Part shown: one piece after another, positions 4,034 to 25,076 of the stretch
How positions within the stretch are numbered: position 1 is the stretch's first letter
How the letters are laid out: each line of letters begins with the position of its first letter
Assembly (NCBI RefSeq): GCF_000003815.2
Contig: NC_049979.1
Location: 9,198,267-9,262,266, forward strand
Origin: Branchiostoma floridae
Lineage: Eukaryota > Chordata > Leptocardii > Amphioxiformes > Branchiostomatidae
Reading direction: 5' to 3'
Length of the DNA: 64,000 bases
Notes under the pieces: generated by a model
Database searches by the model: none
Told to the model about the DNA's origin: nothing
What the model saw: only the letters and a program-made list of their open reading frames with translations
Program-made: the position numbers and the translations under genes

Positions 4034-4642
4034 GGAGGAAACTATAAAAGAAAATACAGAATAGAGAAAACATTTATTTCTTGGAGAGGATTCAGTTATG
4101 TTTTCATAACGTTATACTGGAAGTTTCCTTGTTTTCGAGAAGTCGTCAAAAGACAAGACATGTTAATTCGGATCAGTATAAAAGTAACGAGTTTTACAAA
4201 TTTATCAAAAGATTTTTGCCTAACGCTATTGAAATATTATGTATCGGCTGATAGCAGGGATTTTATTTAAATTTTAACAAGGAGGTTAACGTCCTTGATT
4301 TTAAGGTGTTAATATAAAGTGCGTTAAGTGTCCATATAAAGTTCTATTTCTTTGCCATAGATCGATAACGAATTCATTGGATGTATTCTTTATTTTTGAT
4401 GCATTTATAGTCAGTTTCAAGCTATTACAGTATGTTTCTAAAGCATTGATACATTGTTTGAGTCCTTTTCAACAAAATAATCAAATCGAGGTCGTCTGCC
4501 CAAGATAGGCAATCAGCGTCCGTCTGTCGTGAAAACGAAGTGCCGTAAAACGGACTTGTACAGAGAACCCTTGTGATTGATTTTGTCGGCCGTCGTTTGT
4601 CTAAATTTTCTGCAATAATTCCACAGTATCTGATCAGGAAAT

Positions 4643-11800: not shown

Positions 11801-14142
11801 ACGTTAAATAGATGTAAATATATTTGAAGGATTTTGTTGTAAAATCAGTACCACAAGTTTTGTTCAAACAAGCTTTGGGTGAATGTATAACGTAATTGTA
11901 TTGATTAATCTCTGATAAAATAATTTCATAAATTATTCTTAAGTGTGGAAGGTACCCTAATGGTAAGGTTTTCAATACAAATTCATTTGCATGTATAAAA
12001 CGCTGCTTGTTATTTTCACAGCTGGGAAGGAATGGGTAAAGCTCCCCCCAGTCACACCAGCCCAGCTTGCTGTGGCCAGGAAGATCAAGAAGTTCCTGAC
12101 TGGCAGATTAGAAGCACCTGTAAGTGGTTAAGACTTTTTTCTTTTACTCATACATTGCCCTTCGATGGTATTATCTCACGTTAAGAAGTAATTCCCGAGA
12201 CTTTAGACAATGTAATTATAATGACTAGTTCAGGGAACTGGTAGAGGGCATGTCCAGTCTCAGGTCCATAATTCTTGCAGATCGTGATGATCACGTTTAT
12301 GGTCAGGTGCGGTCAGAGTGGCGTAGATTTTATCAATACAGAAAACCTCACTATAAGAGCCGTCTATAGCCTTGGCAAGCTCATGAATCTTTAAACACCA
12401 AAAAGCATGCCATCTGTCAGATGTAATCAATAGGTGATAGCATGTATTGTATTAGGTAGACTTTACTCTCTACAAAGCCTTAAAATGCAGTTCAATAAGT
12501 GATTTTAGGAGGTTTGATCCAATGTCTCAAGAGAAAGTAATTATGGGAGTCTAATTAGTTTTATCCTGCAATTTTCAGATCATCAGCTACCCGCCATTCC
12601 CAGGCAACGAGTCTAACTACCTGCGAGCACAGATCGCACGTATCTCAGCTGGTACCCAGGTCAGCCCCCTGGGCTTCTTCCAGTTTGATGAGGAAGAAGA
12701 GGAGCAGGAGGAGGGAGAGGAGGGTGAGTTGTAGCTCAGTACAGACTTTCACACTTATTTTCATTCAGGATGCCTATCACTGGCATAGTTTATTTGTGCT
12801 TGGGTTGAGGTTTGGGAACTGAATCCTTCATGTACTTCTTTTACCAAATCTCTGCTGTAGTTGTACACACTATAAACTACAAAGCAGAACATTTTTTTTG
12901 GTCAATTTTTTACCATGATGTCACAATTCTCAGACCTAAAAAGAGGTGGCAAATATGAACAAAGGACAGGGTATTTTATTACTTTCATTTGCAAAACTGC
13001 AAAACCTTGCAATTCAATACATGTGTACATGTATAAAGAAACTGTTTGCTAATGTGCCTAACAGAATGTCAGTTTCTTTCTTTGGAAGTAAAGTCATGTG
13101 TTGAATCCCCCCAGCCCGTGACACCTATGTGGAGAACCCTGACTTTGAGCCTGTGCCCGTGCGGGACCTGACAGACCCCTCCCTGGCCAACTGGGTGCAC
13201 CACGTGCAGCACATCCTGCCCCAGGGCCGCTGCACCTGGTTCAACCCCGTCCAGAAACAGGAGGATGAATTTGAAGATGAGGAGGATGAGGAGGAGAAGG
13301 AGGAGCCAGATGAGCCGGAGCCTGAAGTTGGACCACCTCTCCTCACACCTGTGTCTGAGGATGTTGGTGAGTGGTACTTTGCTGATGACAACATCCAGAT
13401 CTGTAGGAGATAGTTTCACATGTAGTAATTGTAGGAGTATCCAGTATTTGATTTTATCAGGCTAGAAAAACACTTTGTTTTGTTGATGACAGAAACTTAT
13501 TAGATGGGTTTCTTAAGTCCACTGACTTAATCATTTAATGAACTTGTTTTGACAGAAATCGACGGCATGCCGCCATGGACAGCCAAGGTCTCGTCTCACC
13601 TCGTGCCTCAGTATGCCATCGCTGTGGTGAGGTCCAACCTCTGGCCTGGATCGGTTGCTTTCTGCCATGGCAGGCAAGTATTTCCCCAATATTTTTTCAG
13701 TGGCAGTTAGGTCTCTAACAGTCTAAGCAATTTTAATCCTGTAGTGAAATATAAGGTACACTGGTATGGTATAAACCGATCTTGACATTGGGAGCATGAT
13801 TGCTGAGACTCGATTTCAACTCAGTATTAAACATACCAATGCCATGTATGATTTCAGTCATTTTAGGAATGCATACAAGATTTTCTAACATTGCCAAACC
13901 TTCCACCTTACAGGAGGTTTGAGAACATCTATGTCGGCTGGGGCCACAAGTACGCCAGCGAGAACTACAGCCCGCCACCACCTCCCCCAGTCCAGGAGGA
14001 GTTCCCCAGCGGACCGGAGATCACGGAGATCGATGACCCCACAGTGGAGGAGGAGGCGGCCCTGAAGGCAGCCAAGGAGGAGCATCTGGGAGAGGCTGAG
14101 GAGATGGAGGATGTAGAGGACGAGGATGAAGACGATGATTAG
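8819..14142 (+). CDS. RSPH4A: Radial spoke head protein 4/6 (12 exons, complete)
   Basis: Axonemal protein of the radial-spoke head in motile cilia and flagella. Exons: 8819-8946, 9428-9489, 9713-9840, 10125-10223, 10647-10823, 11332-11380, 11624-11740, 12022-12119, 12579-12723, 13115-13366, 13556-13673, 13914-14142; 1602 nt, 533 aa. Recognisable blocks are [71 protein letters not shown] and [12 protein letters not shown]. Acidic Glu-rich runs separate the blocks and close the protein. It is shorter than human RSPH4A/RSPH6A (about 717 aa) and nearer to single RSP4/6 genes of other animals. The intron after exon 11 begins GC, and only that GC-AG splice keeps frame. Whether it is RSPH4A, RSPH6A or the single ancestor cannot be decided here. 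Confidence 0.93.
10274..10492. mobile_element. TA-flanked MITE in RSPH4A intron 4
   Basis: Ends are exact inverted repeats: AAATACTGTAAATGCA and TGCATTTACAGTATTT. The inside has repeated TTCGCGGT/ACCGCGAA words in both orientations. TA at each end fits a TA target duplication, as in Tc1/mariner-type elements. It lies fully within the intron between 10223 and 10647. Confidence 0.8.
10880..11230. repeat. Interspersed repeat, probably retroelement 3' region
   Basis: GC-richer block in RSPH4A intron 5 with phrases such as GTAAAAGAACCCACCGCACT and TTCCCGAGCAGCC. A piece of it recurs at 44345-44425 (AATGGGGTAGG...TTGCCTATTGAGTCA). The recurrence is seen; the retroelement origin is inferred. Confidence 0.5.
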
Positions 14143-14633
14143 GGGACCATCTTAGATGGGGGGAGGGATAGATTCTGATCATATTTTATGGGTCAATGTT
14201 TTACCATGTATTCTAATTTTCACCTTGACTGTATAACTTAAGCATGTTGATTTGTCCTCCTCGGTAAACAGGCTAACAAATTCCAGTGCCTTTGATGAAT
14301 TCTAGACAAGGCCTTAAATAAGCAGATCGTTGTTTGAACTGCTACTCATCTCAAGCAATAGTCCAGTTTTATGTCTAATGTTAATTCGGCAAAGAAGCCA
14401 AAGTTTTATCAGGCTATGGCAAAGATGTAGATTTTGCTACTTTTATCAGCCTTGAAAATGTCCAGAAACAGCCAAGTTGAAAAGGTGGGATTTTGTGTAC
14501 ATATATCTAGGATTGTTGACTCACTGTTTTGTACATATAGAGGTATATTGTGGTTGTAATGAATTCTGATTCAGGAGATTCCCCACAAAATTTTCTGATC
14601 CTCCTAGAACACTGTTTTTGCATTTATTTCCTC

Positions 14634-14639
14634 AATAAA
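14634..14639 (+). terminator. Polyadenylation signal of RSPH4A
   Basis: AATAAA about 490 nt after the RSPH4A stop codon, followed by a GT-containing stretch. It is the first canonical signal in the 3' flank. Confidence 0.6.
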
Positions 14640-15097
14640 ATCTTGTGAAGTTATACGGTGTATTGTCCTGGTAGATAAGTGCATTTTGAACCCGACATTT
14701 TCCTCCAAAGTGCAGTGGAAGGAAAAGATGGACTATGCTTTCCATCAGTGTGCTGGGCACAGTCGATAACAACTGTCCCTTCAGCCTACAAAAGGCTGAT
14801 GATGACGATGATGAGACTACTCAGAATTAGTAGTCAAGCATTAGAGCTGGACAACCTATTCTATAGTTACCAGATTTCTCATTCCTAGTCACCCCTCCAT
14901 TCTGCATGTAAAAAAGCATGAAACCTTACTCAAATTTGAACAAGCATATAACCCACATGGTAGATAAGTGATACATGAATCTGTATGCCCATAATGCCCT
15001 GATAACCTATCTCTCCACCAGACATCACACAAAATTAAGAGCCTGGTTTTATTTACTAGAAGAAAGCATCAGCAGAAAACTTTTTTGACTGTTTGGT

Positions 15098-15103
15098 TTT
15101 ATT
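15098..15103 (-). terminator. Candidate polyadenylation signal of EIF4A3
   Basis: TTTATT on the plus strand, so AATAAA for the minus-strand gene, about 530 nt past the stop at 15632. A second candidate lies at 15048-15053. The 14640-15630 interval otherwise holds only the two converging 3' UTR regions. Confidence 0.45.
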
Positions 15104-15631
15104 CATAAAAGAAGACAAACATGTGCCTGCTGTACATTGATAACAGATGTTTGGGTTCCAGTGTTCCTACTTTGCACACCATATAGTTCGTTTGTACCTG
15201 ACTTATAACAATTACACACCTTTTTCGGAAATGAAAACAAGCTGTTTTAAAGTCTGAATATCTCAATGCTTCAGGGTTTCTACTCCGACTTTTCAAGGAA
15301 TTTTTTATCATATAAGTACTAAAAACACAAAAAGACACTAAAACAAATACACAAAAATTAACGCCATACTAAACTTAACCCTTCCGTGAATAAAAGTTAC
15401 TTCGCACTTTCAAGTGTTCAGAAAGATGGTCTCACAAGATGATGCCCAAAAGTCAAATACGTTACCACAAAAATGTTTCCTTGTATACAGCTGCTTATTT
15501 GTATCCACAGACATAATACATGAATTTATGCTATATATGTGCCCCCAGCCAAGTTACATCCTCCAATGTTTACTCCATGATCCTTGACATCTTTTAAAAG
15601 ATTTGGTCCAACTCTTCCAACTGGTGGCATC

Positions 15632-18600
15632 CTAGATAAGATCAGCGACTGTAAAGAAGATGGAAAGGCATTAATGTACATCATTCGAATATGATGATTT
15701 TCAAAAGTTAGTGAAAGGACTTAAGCTGGTAGCACTTGCTGTCCTGATACCAATACCTTGATAGTAAATAATCGATACATGGAACAGATTGATCTAACAG
15801 GGACGAATTGAATACTAGTAGTGAGCAGATAATATAATGCTTGAAACTGACCATTCATTGGCATCTCATCAATCTGTGTGCTGTAGTACTGCTCAATATC
15901 TCTCAGGATCCTGATGTCGTCACTCTTCACAAAGTTGATAGCCACACCCTTACGGCCAAAGCGACCTGAACGGCCAATTCTGGAATGACACAGAAAGGTT
16001 ACACAAATCTGTGATACATACTAGTATTTGGCTGCTTTTGCATACGAATAACTGGCATGAACATGGAGGGATGATAAAAGTTGGGGCTCAATAATCCACA
16101 CAGCATAAAAAGAACATGCTGATGTCTAATGGGTCCATAATTTTCACTTTTCAAATAGACATTTAATTTCAAAACACGTAGAATTTAATGCAGCATCTCC
16201 TCACCTGTGGATGTACAACTCACGGTTGTTGGGCAGGTCGTAGTTGATGATCAGGGACACCTGCGGCACATCAATACCGCGGGCCCACACGTCAGTTGTG
16301 ATCAGCACACGGCTGTGGGGTACAGTAGACACAACATCATTAAAACTACCGTTCACAGTCTGCTTGTCAAAGAATCGTTAAGTCTTAATACTTAAGGTAA
16401 AAAGCGATAACTAGCTTAGGCCAGTAGTGAACATTTCCTTCTTGAATCCCAGCTATTCATGTATTGATGCTTGCGTACCTGGCACCAGATCTGAACTCCT
16501 TCATGATGGCATCTCTCTCCTTCTGCGGCATGTCTCCGTGCATAGAAGACACAGTGAAGTTAGCCTCACGCATCTTCTCTGTCAACCAGTCAACCTGGAA
16601 ATGGATAAAATACAATAACATGATGGCATGGCTTTGAGATAAAGAACATAAAACAGAATTGATCACAAATATAGTGGAACGTATCTTTTTTTGGGGAGTT
16701 ATCTAAGATCTTCCTATAACACACAACAGCAAACATGTGGATGGAAGCTGCCGTACCTTGCGTTTGGTGTTGCAGAAGATGACTGCCTGTGTGATGGTTA
16801 GAGTGTCGTACAGGTCACACAGGGTGTCGAACTTCCACTCTTCTCGCTCAACAGCAACAAAGAACTGCTTAATGCCCTCCAGCGTCAACTCATCACTGCA
16901 GACAGAAAGTCATAGGTGTAAGGATACATATCCCTCAAAGATGGCAAGAGCTAAATCATCTAATTCAAAATATCATAAAAGCAACTTCAAGGGAAAAAGA
17001 CATAATGTCTAATAGCTTCCTCCTTCCTGTTTAATGAGGATAATCATAATAAATTTCAATTATAGGAAAAGGTGTAGACTTTCAGTTGAATTCTGTTGTA
17101 ATGACTGAATGTTAAGAGTTTGTCAAAGAAGTTCAGTAAGGGTTATGTTGTCAGCATCACTGTCAGCCCCGAAAGATGGTCAAACATCATCACTTCTTGT
17201 AAACAATACCTTCATTAGACTTCTTAATGATTAAAATGATCATATTAGTATTAATTACTGAAAATGGTGCAGAAAAACATGTCTACATATTTACTGTCAC
17301 AGTAGCAGGTTGTAACGTACCGCTTGACCAGAATGCGGATGGGGTCTGTCATGAACTTTGTTGTCATCTCCAGGATCTCATGAGGCAGGGTGGCACTCAG
17401 CAGGACCACCTGGGTGGCTGGAGGCAGGTAACGGTACACGTCGTAGATCTGCTCCTTGAAACCTGAACAAAAAGAAGATGTCAATGTCTGAAGAAGAAAA
17501 AGTATGCCACCCAGTAAGGGGCGGTATAACCCCAACGGTGCTGTAATACACCGTATGACTATGACTTGACTTGAATGTCTGTCAATACTTTTTAAGTTAT
17601 ATCACATGTTATATGACCACTTTGTCCCTGTGAACGAAACATACAGTCTCCAAAAACTACAACAATCATACTTTGAGGTGATTACATTGCAATGGCATTG
17701 ATGTAATGACTGAATGTTGAGAGCTTGCCACAGAAGTTCAGTAAATTTATGTTGTCACCAGCTGGGTCTGCCCCGAAAGATGGTAAAACATCATCACTTC
17801 TCGGCAACACCACTCCAAAGTTAGCAACATCAGATACGCAACAGTGAATGTCTCACCTTTGTTTAGCATCTCATCTGCCTCATCAAGCACCAGCATCTTG
17901 ATGGAGCGAGTACGCAGGTTCCGTCTTCGGATCATGTCTTAAGCACATGGTTAAGGACTATCAACACACATTAACTATTACATGTCTGCAGATAACCATT
18001 ACATAATATCACATCAAATTGCCACATTTCTTAGATAATCACATATAAATCACTGCATACTGAATATTTGTTGTTTGGTCTGTCATGAACTGTCAAATAG
18101 TTTGCCAGAGAAGTTCAGTAAGGGTTATGTTGTCACCAGCAGGGTCAGCCCCGAAAGATGGTCAAACATCATCACTTCTTGGCAATTCCTTTACATGTAT
18201 ATGCTCAGCTGTATCAATCACTTGTGTGGTAAATATTATTTTCACGCTTAAAAGGATACCAAATACTCTGCCTGGTGTCCCAGACACAACATGCTGCCCA
18301 TAGTCCAGCTTCCGGATGTCTTCTCCAACATTGGTGCCACCAATACAGGAATGGCACTGGACACTCATGTAGTCACCCAGAGCTAAAATCACCTGCAGAA
18401 ATCAAAGTAAACCAATGTTATGAAACAAGGCTAGTTAATAGTAGCAGAAAAACAAGGGACCACTAACATCAACAGCACGAAAAATAAGTCCCATTAGTGA
18501 TCTCTCCTTTCTACTATTTTAAAGGACAAAGCTGCACAGGCTTCTGTCATAATTGCTTCTGCACTGCATATCAGTTGACCAACAATCAAGATGGTCTCAT

Positions 18601-20114
18601 GGTGTCAATTACCTTTTGAATCTGTGTTGCCAGCTCTCTGGTCGGGGACAGGACCAAGGCCTGGACTTCTCGCATCTACAAAAAGAGGACAGCAAGGTGT
18701 CAATCTGCATTGATGCAACAGAGTAATACTAATAGCACCAAGTGTAACTATTCCAATTTAGAGTTTCAAGAACTCATTTATCAAAATAACAAAACTAACC
18801 TGAATATCTAGACACTGGAGGATGGAAATGGAGAATGTGGCTGTTTTCCCCACACCAGACTGGGCCCTGAAAAATAACAATTAGAATGTTGCGTGACTGG
18901 ACCATGACAAACTTTCACAAAGGAAATTCTTCATACCCACTTCTGAATGCCACAGAAGTTCAGTAAGGGTTATGTTGTCACCAGCAGGGTCAGCCCCGAA
19001 AGATGGTCAAACATCACCACTTCTTGGCAATTAATTTAATATGATAACCTATTTTTCTGTAGCCTTATTGATTGATGTTCTCTAATCTAAGTATACCCAT
19101 ATGGGCAAGAACATGCAAATAAAGATCATTGTCATTGTCATAATATTCATGGGCCATCCATACAGTAGTTACTATTCCTAAAGCAATGATTTACCCTAAT
19201 CTAAAAAGTATCCCCACACAATTTAACCCTTGGCTGCGAGTCTACAAATTCTAACATTTTTTAGAATTAGAGTCATACAAACCATCACAATATTTATTAA
19301 ATAGGTTACCTGGTTACCAGGTATCAGATGCATACTTTGACGTGGATAGCAGAATTGTGTAAATGGTATACTTGCAACTTGCCAAACTGTTTCTGCCTTT
19401 ATTTGGACATGTGTGTTAGTGATACCAATGATTATGATAGTACTTACTGTGCAATGACATCTCTTCCCTTCACGATAGGCTTGATCGCTCTCTGCTGGAT
19501 TGCTGACGGTTTCTCAAAGCCTGGAAAAAATAAATAGGCGTAAGAATATAAAAGCTAAGTATACACAAGTATAATGGCAACGCAAACATGTTCTGAAGCT
19601 TGACTCAAATATTTTGTCATATAATGTACCTTTTTGAGCAAGTATTGAGCCTTCAAGTTTCCTTATTTTTACCAAAAATTATACTCAAATAGGTCAGTTT
19701 TTGGACGAAACTTCGTAGTAAAATCATACATTTTTTACTCCAAACCCAAACAGAGGTAGCAACTTAACAAAACAGGCAAAGCACCCGCATCCGTAATAAC
19801 GCCTTTTAGATCTTCTCTAGAAGTCACCAAATTGGCTACACGAGAATGGTATTATTTGTTGGGGGATGCGAATTTAATTTTTGGATCAGACAAAGCGTGA
19901 CCACGCCATCGTGTTTTCTACAAGCACATGTCCGCATTTTCAAAGTACCGGTGTGGGGCTTATACATACCGTAGGCGTAAATGCCACGCAGGAGATCTTC
20001 CCTAAGGCCCATAGAGTCGAAGGTTGGTGTAACTTCGACATCTTCGCTTGTTTCGAACTCGATAGTGCTGGTATCCACTCCCTCAGTCACCACAGTGCGT
20101 CGTCGACCCGCCAT
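15632..20114 (-). CDS. EIF4A3: eIF4A-III, DEAD-box RNA helicase of the exon junction complex (12 exons, complete)
   Basis: ATP-dependent RNA clamp that anchors the exon junction complex on spliced mRNA. Exons on the minus strand: 20114-19970, 19520-19448, 18866-18800, 18675-18613, 18392-18260, 17937-17857, 17462-17321, 16895-16757, 16594-16479, 16312-16205, 15979-15852, 15648-15632; 1212 nt, 403 aa (human 411). Motifs: Q motif around 50-58, Walker A AQSGVGKT 74-81, PTREL 106-110, TPGR 155-158, DEAD 179-182, SAT 210-212, ARGID 330-334, HRIGRSGR 355-362, C-terminus NVADLI. Walker A has V where eIF4A proteins normally have T. The start ATG sits in AAAATGGCGG, a YY1-like context common in housekeeping genes. 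Four introns carry box C/D snoRNA-like sequences in sense. The NVADLI end and [20 protein letters not shown] favour eIF4A3 over eIF4A1/2. Confidence 0.96.
17118..17204 (-). ncRNA. Box C/D snoRNA-like, copy A (EIF4A3 intron 7)
   Basis: Read on the minus strand: terminal AAGAAG/CTTCTT stem, C box GTGATGA, antisense element ACCATCTTTCGGGG, D' box CTGA, a weaker C' region (GCTGACAA), then D box CTGA. It is in sense with the host gene, and its 3' end is about 222 nt before the next exon at 16895. The outer stem is weaker than in copies C-E. Expression cannot be judged from sequence. Confidence 0.75.
17725..17808 (-). ncRNA. Box C/D snoRNA-like, copy B (EIF4A3 intron 6)
   Basis: Minus strand: stem GTTGCCGAGAAG / CTTCTGTGGCAA, C box GTGATGA, the same antisense element ACCATCTTTCGGGG, D' variant CAGA, C' GTGACAA, D box CTGA. 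The stretch before the D box is altered (CATAAATTTA, against CATAACCCTTA in the other copies), so its second guide has diverged. The next exon begins about 262 nt downstream. Confidence 0.75.
18102..18185 (-). ncRNA. Box C/D snoRNA-like, copy C (EIF4A3 intron 5)
   Basis: Minus strand: stem TTGCCAAGAAG / CTTCTCTGGCAA, C box GTGATGA, antisense element ACCATCTTTCGGGG, D' CTGA, C' GTGACAA, second element ACATAACCCTTA, D box CTGA. All boxes match consensus closely. It sits about 164 nt before the 3' splice site. Confidence 0.82.
18948..19030 (-). ncRNA. Box C/D snoRNA-like, copy D (EIF4A3 intron 2)
   Basis: Minus strand, nearly identical to copy C, with stem TTGCCAAGAAG / CTTCTGTGGCA. The C box is GTGGTGA instead of GTGATGA (plus strand reads TCACCAC), a one-base departure. 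The 3' end is about 81 nt before the exon at 18866, near the 70-80 nt spacing usual for intronic box C/D snoRNAs in animals. Confidence 0.78.
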
Positions 20115-20434
20115 TTTGTCGGATGCGTGCAAGCGATGCTTAGTAAATTTGTGAAATACCCTGTGATTGGTCAAAGGCCTAAGCAGTCCTAGTTATCAAC
20201 CAATAGAATATTTCGACACATAGCAGGGCTTCGTACTGTACTATGGGTAGATCCTGATTATGAAACGATTTCATAACAACAGGTTTTGACGCAATATATG
20301 AGAAACTATATGTCAAGAATCTAACTTAAAAACAAAAAAAGATCAGTTTTTGTACAGTAATCGGTGAAAAAATCTTCTACAGCGTTGAGCCTTGGAATTA
20401 GGTCAAAGGTCATATTTCCTCGAGCTGGACTGAG
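20115..20434. promoter_or_regulatory. Putative divergent promoter between EIF4A3 and WDR53
   Basis: Only about 300 bp separate the EIF4A3 start codon from a possible plus-strand 5' UTR exon ending at a GTGAGG donor near 20434. CCAAT boxes occur in both orientations: ATTGG at 20166-20170 (towards EIF4A3) and CCAAT at 20200-20204 (towards WDR53). Sites are seen; shared promoter function and the UTR exon are inference. Confidence 0.4.
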
Positions 20435-20639
20435 GTGAGGTTCTTTAATACATTTGCAAGAGTGTGCTGGTATTTTACCAGTTGCTCATTTTATCACCAG
20501 AAGATGGTTATAAGACTGGACTGTAAATGTACTGCAAGCCAGGGAACGTAGTGGTTTTCGTCTGACTAATTTCTTTACTGTGTAAGGTGCGAAATTATGT
20601 TGGTGAAGTGAGTATACATTTCCCCGCATGTGCAAGCAC

Positions 20640-20860
20640 CACGTGGCGTGGGTACCATAATTTATTTTTGGTGCAGAAGTTCATGGAAGTTGGACACCTC
20701 AATTCAAACTACTCTGTTGAAAGTATGTTCAGTGTAATATAACCAGCTGCTGCTGCACCGCGTGCCTGCGAAGCTGGTGCGTTACGCCGAAGGGCGGTTA
20801 TACCGGCTATATAGATACAGATAGAGATACAGATGTTTATGACTTTAGATTAGAATTTGG
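20640..20860. repeat. Interspersed repeat fragment upstream of WDR53
   Basis: GC-rich TGCGTTACGCCGAAGGGCGG followed by GGTTATACCGGCTATATAG and a short AGATACAGATAGAGATACAG run. A related phrase (GGGGCGGTATAACCCC) occurs at 17518-17534 in an EIF4A3 intron. Class not determined. Confidence 0.4.
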
Positions 20861-20903
20861 GTAGTGGGTGAATGAATGAAGACTAACTGAGCAGCTCAGG
20901 AAA

Positions 20904-20983
20904 GCCAAGAAGTGATGATGTTTGACCATCTTTCGGGGCAGACCCAGCTGGTGACAACATAACCCTTACTGAACTTCTCTGGC
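20904..20983 (+). ncRNA. Box C/D snoRNA-like, copy E (upstream intron of WDR53)
   Basis: Plus strand: stem GCCAAGAAG / CTTCTCTGGC, C box GTGATGA at 20912-20918, antisense element ACCATCTTTCGGGG, D' variant CAGA, C' GTGACAA, D box CTGA at 20969-20972. It is in sense with WDR53, and its 3' end is about 80 nt before the acceptor at 21065, the usual spacing for intronic box C/D snoRNAs. It is the same family as the four EIF4A3 intronic copies. Confidence 0.8.
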
Positions 20984-21300
20984 AAACATTGCTTGTAAGA
21001 TTATGTTTAGTTTAGATTTAACTAGGCAGTTGTTTTAATACACATGCATGATTGTGTTGGTACAGGAGCAAGCCATGACACAAGAGTCCAGGTTCACAGG
21101 CGGACACCAGGACAGCGTGCTGTGCCTGGCCTGCAGCACAGACGGTGTGCTGGCCAGCGGTGGGGAGAGTGGAGAACTCTGCCTCTGGTCTGTGGAGAAG
21201 CCCAGTCTCCTGCATCAAGTCTCAGGGCTCCCAGATGCTGATGTCACCTCGGTCTGCTTCTCTGTGAAGCATCCGACATTGCTGTGTGCAGCTGTGGGAG

Positions 21301-24210
21301 ACGACCTGGAATGTACAAACCCTTCTTCGAACAGGCTATGCAACACTTCTGTCGCACGAACTCACCAAATATGACCTCAGTCTGGCGGGCATCTGCGAAG
21401 TCAGATGGCCCGGCTCAGGAGAGACCATTGTTGGAGACCACACCTTCATATGGAGCGGCCCTGAGGACAGAACCGGCCTCTACGGTGTAGCCCTAGCAAT
21501 TCCCTCACGGCTGAGAGGCTCACTCATCAGCTGGAAACCCATCTCTGACAGACTGCTCACAGCCCGTCTCCTTCACACACATGGAAAGATGACTGTCATT
21601 GTCGCCTACGCGCCAACAGAGGTAGCCGAGGACACTGACAAGGATGCGTTCTATGACCAGCTGCAGGAAGCTGTCCAAGATGCTCCACCGCATGACATCA
21701 CCCTTGTTCTTACCGATGCTAATGCCACCCTTTCAGCTAACACCCGCCCCTCTGCCCAGCAGGATGCGATGGGCCCCATATCTGTGGACACAACTACTAA
21801 CGACAACGGAAACCGCCTACTGGAACTCTGCAGAGCTACTAACCTCTGCATCGCTGACACCTGGTTTCCACGCAAGAGGATCCATCACTGGACCTGGTAC
21901 AGCCCTGACGGAAGAACCAGAAAAGCCATCGACCACATCCTCATCTCTGGCCGCTGGAAGTCTTTCATCACCAACTGCCGAGTCTACAGAGGTGCCCAGC
22001 TCGGCAACACAGACCACAGGCTGCTGATGGCCCACATGCGACTCAAGCTTAAAGCCGACCCTTCCTCCAAAAAGCAAGTACGAGTTGACTCCTCACGGCT
22101 CAAGGATCCCTTAATCCAAGAGGCCTTCAGCTGTGCCATCTCCAACAGGTACAACGCCCTAGCAATGGATGCCACGACGGACTGGGAGCTCTTTAAAGAA
22201 GAGGTCCTTAAAGCGACTGAGGAAACAGTTGGCAAGAGCAGACCCTCACCCAAGCAACCCTGGATCTCTCCTGAGACTCTCGACATCATTGACTCACGCC
22301 GTGCTGCACGCTTACGTGGAGATCTGACGGAGTATCGCCGACTCAATGGAATCCGCAACATAGCTATTCGCCAGGACCGTGAGAAGTACTGGACGGATCA
22401 AGCTGCTAAGCTCGAAGCCGCAGCAGAGCGGAATGACCAGCGACAAGTCTACAGGCTCCTACGTCAAGCCAAGGCTGGCCCACGACAACGCAGTTTCCTC
22501 ATCAAAGACAGCGTCGGCAACATCATCTCTACAGAGTCCGACTGTATCCACAGATGGAAGGAACATTTCAGCCAGCTGCTTAACCACCCTCCAGTACCAG
22601 AGGACCCTACACTCTCCGAAGCAGCCAGTGCGACTGATGCCATAAACGCTGACTGTCCCGTAACTCCTGTTACTCCGGACGAGGTGAAGGCCGCCCTGGG
22701 TAAACTGAAGAATGGTAAAGCCCCTGGGATCTGCAACATAACGGCTGAGATGCTGAAGGCAGGAGGGGATCACATGATTCAGTGGCTTACTCAGATAGTG
22801 AACCATGTGTGGGTCCTGGAGACACTCCCTGATGACTGGAGGCGAGGGATCATCCTGCCTTTCTGGAAAAGGAAGGGAGACCAGCTGGTGTGCAGCAACC
22901 ACAGAGGCATCACCTTACTCTCCATTCCAGGCAAGCTGTTCACCCGTATCCTCCTCACCAGAGCCATCCCTGCCATCAGGAGCAGGCGGCGCCCACAACA
23001 GGCAGGTTTCATGCCAAACCGCTCTACCACGGACCATATCTCCGCTCTCCGTCTGGCCATTGAGAAGGCCAGGGAGTTCAGAAAGGACCGTCACCTTTAC
23101 ATTGCCTTCATAGACCTCAGAGCTGCCTTTGACACAGTAGACCATACCTCCCTCTGGAAAATCCTGAGACTGCTTGGAGCCCCTCAGAAGATAGTCTCCC
23201 TTTTCCAGCAGCTGTACAACTCCGCGGAGAGCTGCGTCAGAGTAAACGGGAAAGAGTCAGAGTGGTTCACCATCAACAGTGGGGTCAGACAGGGTTGTGT
23301 GGCTGCCCCCGACCTCTTCAACTGTGTTATTGACTACCTGATGACGAAGGTCTGCGAACGAGTCCCCGGGGTGTCCTTTGGACAGTACAACCTGGCCGAC
23401 CTCGAGTACGCCGACGACACCTCCCTGCTTGTCGATGATCTGGACCAACTGGCAGAAGCCCTCACGGTCTACGATGAGGAGGCCAAGAAGCTTGGTCTCA
23501 GCATCAATTGGAGCAAGACAGAGCTCATGCACATCGGAGACGGCCCGGACCCTGAGCCCCTCATCTTCAATCAGTGCATCGTGAACTTTGTCTCTTCATT
23601 CAAGTACCTTGGCTCAATACTCTCCAAGACAGGTGACCTGAAACCCGAGGTCAACCAACGACGCGCCCAGGCCTCAGCTGTCCTACAGTCCCTATGGAAA
23701 CCACTCTGGCGACATCGTCATATCTCCCTGCAGACCAAACAACGAGTCTACAACTCCTCGGTTATTTCAGTTCTCCTGTACGGCTCGGAAACCTGGGCAC
23801 TGAACAACACTCTGGCAGCCCGGCTCGACGGATTCGACTCTAGAGCTCTGAGGAGGATCACTGGCACCCGTTGGCACGAGCATGTGCGCAACAGTGAACT
23901 CAGGGAGCTGACCGGACAACCTCCCGCCTCCTCCCTTGCAGCCATGAGAAGGGTTCGATGGTACGGGCACGTCCTCCGGCTCCCTCCAGAGCACCCCACC
24001 AGAGCCCTGCTCAACTTCGACCCAAAGCAGGCAGGATGGCGTCGCCCACGGGGGAAGCCCCGCACCCGCTGGATGGACGTGGTGTCCCGAGATCTGCGCA
24101 CCATTAACATCACCCCCCACCAGGCGCAGCTTGCAGCGACAAACAGAGGATGGTGGAGGTCCCTAGTGAATTCAGTCGGCTCTACGCACCACGTGCAAGA
24201 GGACGAGTGA
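21301..24210 (+). CDS. LINE endonuclease/reverse transcriptase ORF (open, 5' truncated)
   Basis: A single uninterrupted frame of about 970 codons to TGA 24208-24210, in a frame different from WDR53. It starts inside the AP-endonuclease-like domain (TWNVQTLL, then GICEVRW, and the NTDHRLL end of that domain near 22003-22023). Next comes a reverse transcriptase: GKLKNGKAPG, FMPNRSTTDHI, AFIDLRAAFDTVDH, VRQGCVAAPDLFN, and the catalytic LEYADD near 23401. A C-terminal block RRVRWYGHVLRL ... PRGKPRTRWMDVV follows, as in RTE-like and related LINE clades. There is no ATG at the start of the frame; the first in-frame ATG is near 21590, so the 5' end is missing. Clade is uncertain. Confidence 0.9.
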   Translation, partial: TTWNVQTLLRTGYATLLSHELTKYDLSLAGICEVRWPGSGETIVGDHTFIWSGPEDRTGLYGVALAIPSRLRGSLISWKPISDRLLTARLLHTHGKMTVIVAYAPTEVAEDTDKDAFYDQLQEAVQDAPPHDITLVLTDANATLSANTRPSAQQDAMGPISVDTTTNDNGNRLLELCRATNLCIADTWFPRKRIHHWTWYSPDGRTRKAIDHILISGRWKSFITNCRVYRGAQLGNTDHRLLMAHMRLKLKADPSSKKQVRVDSSRLKDPLIQEAFSCAISNRYNALAMDATTDWELFKEEVLKATEETVGKSRPSPKQPWISPETLDIIDSRRAARLRGDLTEYRRLNGIRNIAIRQDREKYWTDQAAKLEAAAERNDQRQVYRLLRQAKAGPRQRSFLIKDSVGNIISTESDCIHRWKEHFSQLLNHPPVPEDPTLSEAASATDAINADCPVTPVTPDEVKAALGKLKNGKAPGICNITAEMLKAGGDHMIQWLTQIVNHVWVLETLPDDWRRGIILPFWKRKGDQLVCSNHRGITLLSIPGKLFTRILLTRAIPAIRSRRRPQQAGFMPNRSTTDHISALRLAIEKAREFRKDRHLYIAFIDLRAAFDTVDHTSLWKILRLLGAPQKIVSLFQQLYNSAESCVRVNGKESEWFTINSGVRQGCVAAPDLFNCVIDYLMTKVCERVPGVSFGQYNLADLEYADDTSLLVDDLDQLAEALTVYDEEAKKLGLSINWSKTELMHIGDGPDPEPLIFNQCIVNFVSSFKYLGSILSKTGDLKPEVNQRRAQASAVLQSLWKPLWRHRHISLQTKQRVYNSSVISVLLYGSETWALNNTLAARLDGFDSRALRRITGTRWHEHVRNSELRELTGQPPASSLAAMRRVRWYGHVLRLPPEHPTRALLNFDPKQAGWRRPRGKPRTRWMDVVSRDLRTINITPHQAQLAATNRGWWRSLVNSVGSTHHVQEDE

Positions 24211-24221
24211 GTGAGTGAGTG
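21302..24221 (+). mobile_element. Non-LTR retrotransposon inserted in WDR53
   Basis: The insertion is flanked by a 12-bp direct repeat, AGCTGTGGGAGA, at 21290-21301 and 24222-24233, which is the target-site duplication. The 3' end is a short (GTGA)n run of about five units just before the right copy; the 5' end is truncated. The frame is intact over 2.9 kb, which argues for a recent insertion. Confidence 0.92.
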
Positions 24222-25076
24222 AGCTGTGGGAGAGTCTGTACACCTGTACGACTCCAGGGACATGGCAAAGCCAGTTCACCAGTTCAACTTCAACTCAGAG
24301 GAAATCAACGAAGTTACCTTTAACGAGAAAGAGAACTTTCTGGCAGCCTGTGATGATTCTGGTGAAATCAAGATTATAGACTTTGAAGGGAGAAAGTTGT
24401 TCAAGACATTACGTGGGCATGAAAACATCTGCTCAAGTGCAAAATTTTGCCCCAAGAAAACATGGGGGATGGTGTCAGGGGGACTGGATCAGAATGTTAT
24501 ACTGTGGGACTTTTCAAGGGGAAAGAAGTTAAAGATCAGTAATGTGCAAGACTTTGCCTCAGAAGATGCATCAGTTAGTGCTTACATGTGCAATCCTCCC
24601 TTAGTTCACTCTGTTGATGTGTCAGGACAGACGTTTGCATGTGGCCTGGGGAACTCTGTTATTCAGATGTTCAAACTTGAGGGAAAAGAAGTCGTTTCGG
24701 CACACAGGGACTCTTGAGGGACATTCACAAGGAGTTTCTCAAGTTCACTTCCCACAATATCAGGTAGACGATAAACTAGTATCTGCAGGCAATGATGGAA
24801 AAATAATTGTATGGGATCTGGCTAGCAACCAGCAATCACATGCAGCAGGTTCTAGTAAGGAGGCAGTGAAAGACAAAGGGGCTGCTGGGACTTTAAAAAG
24901 TCAAGTTGCACAGAGCATAGACCATGGGTCAAAAATCAACTGGTTGACTTCAGGTTGTGTTAAAGGGAAGAAGCTATTGTTCGTTGCAGATGTTTCACCT
25001 GTAGTTACATCATACTCGCTCCATGTAGATGATGGAAAGGGTGATGTTTGAAGTACTTAGTCATCAATCAGTGATG

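Follow-up and report, generated by a model that had tools for sequence, protein, structure and literature searches.

We analyzed a 64,000-nucleotide stretch of the amphioxus Branchiostoma floridae genome (contig NC_049979.1, positions 9,198,267 to 9,262,266 of the forward strand; hereafter the window, with positions counted from its first letter) and found five copies of one box C/D small nucleolar RNA (snoRNA) unit, four in introns of the gene EIF4A3 and a fifth beside the start of that gene. The five copies are very likely SNORD2 (snR39B) guides that have been multiplied locally, are made from introns and target a G of the 28S ribosomal RNA (rRNA). The snoRNA is probably an ordinary, functional guide that is hosted here by a different eIF4A paralogue. 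The result is a good annotation of a known guide family in a different host, and a known kind of thing.

SNORD2 copies at the EIF4A3 locus

The host gene was modeled by joining exons from the window sequence. It has 12 coding exons encoding 403 amino acids, and introns 1-11 are all GT...AG. Its top match in PDB is human eIF4A-III/DDX48, at 821.7 bits against 609.9 bits for eIF4A-I. A first-pass annotation of this DNA had described a sequence of ~85 base pairs (bp) recurring in introns 2, 5, 6 and 7, always in the orientation of the gene. A repeat finder and the gene model confirm this, with four copies of ~90 nucleotides (nt) in these introns, all on the minus strand. The gene and the copies, with the bit scores of the Rfam SNORD2 model, are as follows.

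15632..20114, minus strand: host gene EIF4A3, start codon at 20114
17116..17204, minus strand: predicted SNORD2 copy in EIF4A3 intron 7 (17320-16896), D' box CUGA, 41.1 bits at 17197-17127
17718..17810, minus strand: predicted SNORD2 copy in EIF4A3 intron 6 (17856-17463), D' box CAGA, 36.9 bits at 17801-17732
18098..18187, minus strand: predicted SNORD2 copy in EIF4A3 intron 5 (18259-17938), D' box CUGA, 42.1 bits at 18179-18109
18942..19032, minus strand: predicted SNORD2 copy in EIF4A3 intron 2 (19447-18867), D' box CUGA, 40.1 bits at 19024-18954
20900..20990, plus strand: predicted fifth SNORD2 copy on the opposite strand, D' box CAGA, 35.1 bits at 20908-20978, inverted repeats I1-I5

The repeat finder grouped the intron copies as family D1, in which 17121-17211, 17725-17815 and 18948-19038 are 82%, 71% and 96% identical, without gaps, to the reference at 18103-18193. 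The fifth copy (20904-20987, plus strand) is an inverted match, with 98% identity across 84 nt to the copy in intron 5. It had gone unmentioned in the first-pass annotation, as had the SNORD2 family name and an rRNA target. The one-per-intron pattern to which that annotation had pointed does not hold as a rule for the gene, as 7 of its 11 introns have no copy in the relaxed Rfam list.

The family assignment comes from covariance models. When the window was scanned with Rfam at the curated cut-offs, three matches were obtained, all to SNORD2 (RF01299) and on the EIF4A3 strand. In a relaxed-threshold scan of positions 14000-24000, the other two copies also matched SNORD2, slightly under the cut-off, and the model was matched at full length in all five. 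The covariance search that had been proposed thus returned SNORD2 in each of the four intron copies, three of them above the cut-off, which supports the earlier box C/D reading and gives it a name. We place the copies in the SNORD2 family with high confidence.

The repetition is not a matter of chance, as the core string CCCGAAAGATGG is present five times in the window but absent from all 100 shuffles. A whole-genome search with a 96-base copy (513 Mb, 431 contigs) found five places, all at the EIF4A3 locus, and a whole-genome search with the SNORD2 model at E up to 1, in which 61 of 120,057 first-look candidates were scored, found the identical five; very common words were skipped, and both counts are lower bounds. 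A dispersed repeat or short transposon that resembles a snoRNA by chance would likewise place a repeated sequence in several introns. However, the five genomic matches, a lower bound, all lie at one locus, and the unit corresponds both to a curated family of snoRNAs and to a sequence of rRNA, so that we regard this explanation as barely credible. The first-pass annotation had also excluded chance, and on this point it stands, but part of its argument was the single orientation of the copies. All four are indeed in sense, yet this carries less weight than was claimed, because the copies may have arisen by local duplication of intron DNA (see repeat D3 below), which predicts the same orientation.

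Boxes, stem and the predicted 28S rRNA target

On the gene strand, the terminal stem, C box, D', C' and D box described in the first-pass annotation are all present, together with a guide element. Across the five copies, no column varies in the 13-nt guide (0 of 13), the D box (0 of 4) or the two arms of the 6-bp stem (0 of 12). One column varies in each of the C box (of 7), D' (of 4) and C' (of 7), and the spacers vary at 4 of 7 columns in the D'-C' interval and 3 of 12 before D. The textbook C box is RUGAUGA. All five copies read RUGAUGU, departing from the textbook A at the final base, and the Rfam SNORD2 consensus, AUGAUGG, is likewise off at this base. The single C box change is an A to G at the R position in the intron 2 copy. 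The D box is CUGA throughout.

The terminal stem is 6 bp long in every copy, and 91.7% of its 60 stem cells are paired, a value that falls to 33-47% when the arms are slid by 1-3 columns. The arms therefore really pair, as had been claimed for them. Past 6 bp the outer stem is intact in some copies and broken in others. When the folding of each unit was compared with that of 200 shuffles, the z-scores were -3.32 for the intron 5 copy (2 shuffles folding equally well or better), -2.55 for intron 2 (3 shuffles), -1.79 for the fifth copy (10 shuffles) and -1.67 for intron 6 (13 shuffles).

The 13-nt guide before D' is identical in the five copies and complementary to CCCGAAAGAUGGU of eukaryotic 28S rRNA. 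It pairs at 13 of 13 positions with the large-subunit (LSU) rRNA in all four contigs that Rfam scored as eukaryotic LSU, and in the intron 6 copy the pairing runs to 16 nt with one G-U. By the rule that the methylated position lies opposite the fifth nucleotide upstream of D', as given in excerpts of PMC8162545, the relevant base of the guide is a C, whose partner in the rRNA is the G of CCCG, immediately before AAAG. The predicted site of 2'-O-methylation is thus the G of CCCG followed by AAAGAUGGU, in the 28S context CCCGAAAG / CCCGAAAGAUGG. For chicken snR39B, in intron 3 of EIF4A2, the excerpted list of PMC2653536 gives 28S-G1457 as the target of a D'-side element, and a separate chicken guide is listed there for A1459. 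This spacing fits the G and the A two bases further on in CCCGAA.

A second, D-box guide is not supported by the sequences. Among the matches listed (the best three LSU and two small-subunit rRNA matches per copy and sequence), the possible candidate is the 9-nt AACATAACC, which ends four bases before D in four of the five copies. It matches one of the four LSU contigs (L015) and is not common to the rest, and others overlap the D box. In the intron 6 copy, the spacer that precedes D is altered as well.

Several results weigh against the interpretation of all five copies as SNORD2 guides. Relative to the curated SNORD2 cut-off of 37 bits, three copies score above (42.1, 41.1 and 40.1) and two slightly under (36.9 and 35.1). 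The model, at E up to 1, also gave sub-cut-off matches in 6 of 14 prokaryote control genomes, so that a weak score alone says little, although the two copies in question are near-copies of the three above the cut-off. In these same two copies, from intron 6 and the fifth, D' is CAGA, against CUGA in the other three. Compensatory changes were not found in any stem pair among the five copies, and the pairing of the arms was better than that of shuffled arms at p < 0.05 in only two (p = 0.010 for intron 2, 0.022 for intron 5, 0.106 for intron 6, 0.150 for the fifth copy and 0.22 for intron 7). The stem could consequently be explained by shared descent alone, and the first-pass argument from complementary stems loses this part of its force. 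For the intron 7 copy, folding is at the level of its own shuffles (z = 0.01, 97 of 200 folding at least equally well).

The position of the copies within introns is also mixed. Excerpts of PMC8162545 place the usual snoRNA optimum at ~50 nt before the branch point. From unit to acceptor we measured 75 nt in intron 2, 75 nt for the fifth copy (to a plausible acceptor), 160 nt in intron 5, 220 nt in intron 7 and 255 nt in intron 6; two of the five are compatible with the usual spacing and three, at 160-255 nt, are further off. A long terminal stem is able to compensate for a poor intronic position. With regard to the target, the LSU contigs were retrieved with a pattern that contains it, and their agreement shows where the target lies and is no independent test of its conservation. 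The exact target pattern had no match in the assembly of this animal, in which the rRNA genes may be absent or may differ in sequence. Further rRNA matches of 11-13 nt, such as one of 13 nt with a single G-U in contig L011, overlap the D' box and are therefore not in guide position.

Taken together, these results raise the alternative that no more than one or two of the copies work as snoRNA genes, the rest being duplicates on their way to decay. It would account for the two copies with CAGA and scores under the cut-off, for the intron 7 fold and for the three copies far from the usual optimum. In contrast, none of the 29 columns of the guide, D box and stem varies, and free decay would not have spared these columns unless the copies were very young. 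We consider this alternative possible, though doubtful. That all five copies are made as RNA is a conclusion in which we have moderate confidence.

Based on the sequence, we infer the following route for transcription, processing, methylation and dosage. Four snoRNAs would be produced from spliced-out EIF4A3 introns, and one probably from a first intron of the WD40 gene that diverges from EIF4A3. Once an intron has been spliced out and debranched, exonucleases would trim it to the small nucleolar ribonucleoprotein, which the terminal stem and the C/D kink-turn hold. The guide of 13 nt that precedes D' would then pair with 28S rRNA and position the G of CCCG for 2'-O-methylation by fibrillarin. 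The copies would have been born by local duplication, and having several of them may mainly raise or buffer the dosage of one guide.

The fifth copy and the origin of the series

The fifth copy sits between the EIF4A3 start codon (20114) and the ATG (21075) of a WD40-repeat gene that is head-to-head with EIF4A3. Each of the four intron copies runs in the direction of its EIF4A3 host, and the fifth shares its direction with the adjoining WD40 gene. A plausible acceptor, TTGGTACAG, ends at 21065, 75 nt downstream of the fifth copy, and several candidate donor sites lie upstream of it, none of them proved. The fifth copy is probably in a first intron of the WD40 gene, which we take to be WDR53-like. 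The features on this side are as follows.

21075..25051, plus strand: divergent WD40-repeat gene, ATG at 21075, with open pieces that match WD40 repeats
21268-24210, plus strand: insertion of a long interspersed nuclear element (LINE) in the WD40 gene, with a 980-amino-acid open frame and a reverse transcriptase match (RVT_1, 1.2e-30)

The LINE is flanked by a 12-bp repeat, AGCTGTGGGAGA, and has a GAGT-rich tail at its end; it looks like a recent insertion with a target-site duplication. In the downstream half of the WD40 gene, the reading frame changes between 24605 and 24717 (plus strand). The gene looks to be broken twice in this assembly, and its only full-identity match in the genome is this locus. 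The gene may be decaying, or the breaks could reflect an assembly error or belong to one allele.

To examine how the series may have arisen, we compared the 60-nt flanks outside the unit over the 10 copy pairs. They are mostly near the shuffled level. The exceptions are the flanks downstream of the intron 6 and 7 copies (0.70, shuffled 0.60 +- 0.04) and those upstream of the intron 7 and fifth copies (0.62, shuffled 0.56 +- 0.03). In addition, repeat D3 joins the intron 6 and 7 copies over 46 nt at 89%, about half of it outside the snoRNA unit. D3 and the similarity of the downstream flanks argue for DNA duplication in the case of the intron 6/7 pair, and local duplication may be the source of all the copies. 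Both cis-duplication of snoRNAs within one host and moves to new hosts are described in PMC2653536, PMC3511168 and PMC3412847.

eIF4A paralogues and known systems

The closest relative of EIF4A3 found elsewhere in the genome (stretch L039) is of the eIF4A1/2 type: for two exons, the match to eIF4A-I (148.1 and 83.3 bits) is stronger than that to eIF4A-III (128.1 and 65.2 bits). Within the L039 stretch, and within that of a second, more diverged relative (L040), we found no SNORD2 match at E up to 1; the scan covered these stretches and not introns beyond them. Thus, in this animal SNORD2 is found at EIF4A3 and not in the eIF4A1/2-type gene as scanned. Other candidates were observed in L039.

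4040-4179 and 5866-6005 of L039, plus strand: SNORA21-like H/ACA candidates between the exons, in sense, 43.8 and 38.3 bits, under the cut-off of 80
573-647 of L039, plus strand: long hairpin with sub-cut-off matches to two microRNA-precursor models; it may be a transposon end or just a simple palindrome

A more adaptive scenario is that SNORD2 moved between eIF4A paralogues because hosting by this family is favored, which would tie rRNA methylation to how much of a translation or exon-junction helicase is supplied, and that the fifth copy kept the broken WD40 host region in use as the gene became a pure snoRNA host. We offer this as speculation and think it improbable.

In the searched open literature, no title or abstract opening placed SNORD2 in EIF4A3, most subscription journals being outside that scope. 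The human and chicken SNORD2/snR39B genes resemble the amphioxus copies in family, D'-side guide, 28S G target and location in an intron of an eIF4A-family gene. They differ in the host, which is EIF4A2 (intron 3) in human and chicken, against EIF4A3 and probably the divergent WD40 gene here, and in number, with five copies here and one listed in chicken.

Excerpts of PMC10324135 describe that human SNORD2, in EIF4A2 intron 3, can mask the branch point and thereby alter host splicing. This mechanism, known from a paralogous host, raises the question of whether the amphioxus copies also regulate EIF4A3 splicing in cis. For every copy, the duplex energy of the snoRNA core with the intron sequence downstream of it was compared with that of 200 shuffles, with branch points unmapped. 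Pairing was slightly above the shuffles for intron 6 (p = 0.055) and showed no excess for the other four (p = 0.235, 0.86, 0.74 and 0.54). With four of the five pairings at the shuffle level and one borderline, there is no clear sign of branch-point masking as in human, the cis mechanism is unsupported here, and we judge it unlikely that the copies act in this way. Nor do our results lend support to the first-pass suggestion that EIF4A3 is notable as a host because it is itself deposited by splicing.

Among more distant relatives, the nematode snoRNA ceN70 (RF01652) has, in alignments, the same guide element and layout as the amphioxus copies. All five copies match ceN70 (E 5.9e-06 to 0.00035) and ceN109 (RF01613; E 0.001 to 0.028), but the scores, 25.4-38.8 bits, fall short of the respective cut-offs (65 and 52), and the copies are thus not members of these families. 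The intron 6 copy (17732-17801, minus strand) has UUUACC at the guide start and a D' starting with CA, as in the ceN70 consensus (38.8 bits), and this might be the older form.

The arrangement also has a parallel in the chicken U18 copies in introns 2, 5 and 6 of RPL4, listed in the excerpted PMC2653536, where one guide likewise occupies several introns of one host. Unlike U18 in RPL4, the amphioxus series has a member on the opposite strand, next to a second gene that lies head-to-head with the host. The locus adds a multi-copy SNORD2 example in which different animals carry the same guide in different helicase-family members, and the human SNORD2-EIF4A2 splicing switch can naturally be compared with it. 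It is also a test case for whether the choice of snoRNA host is drift among well-expressed genes, the constrained-drift view set out in PMC3511168, or reflects some preference.

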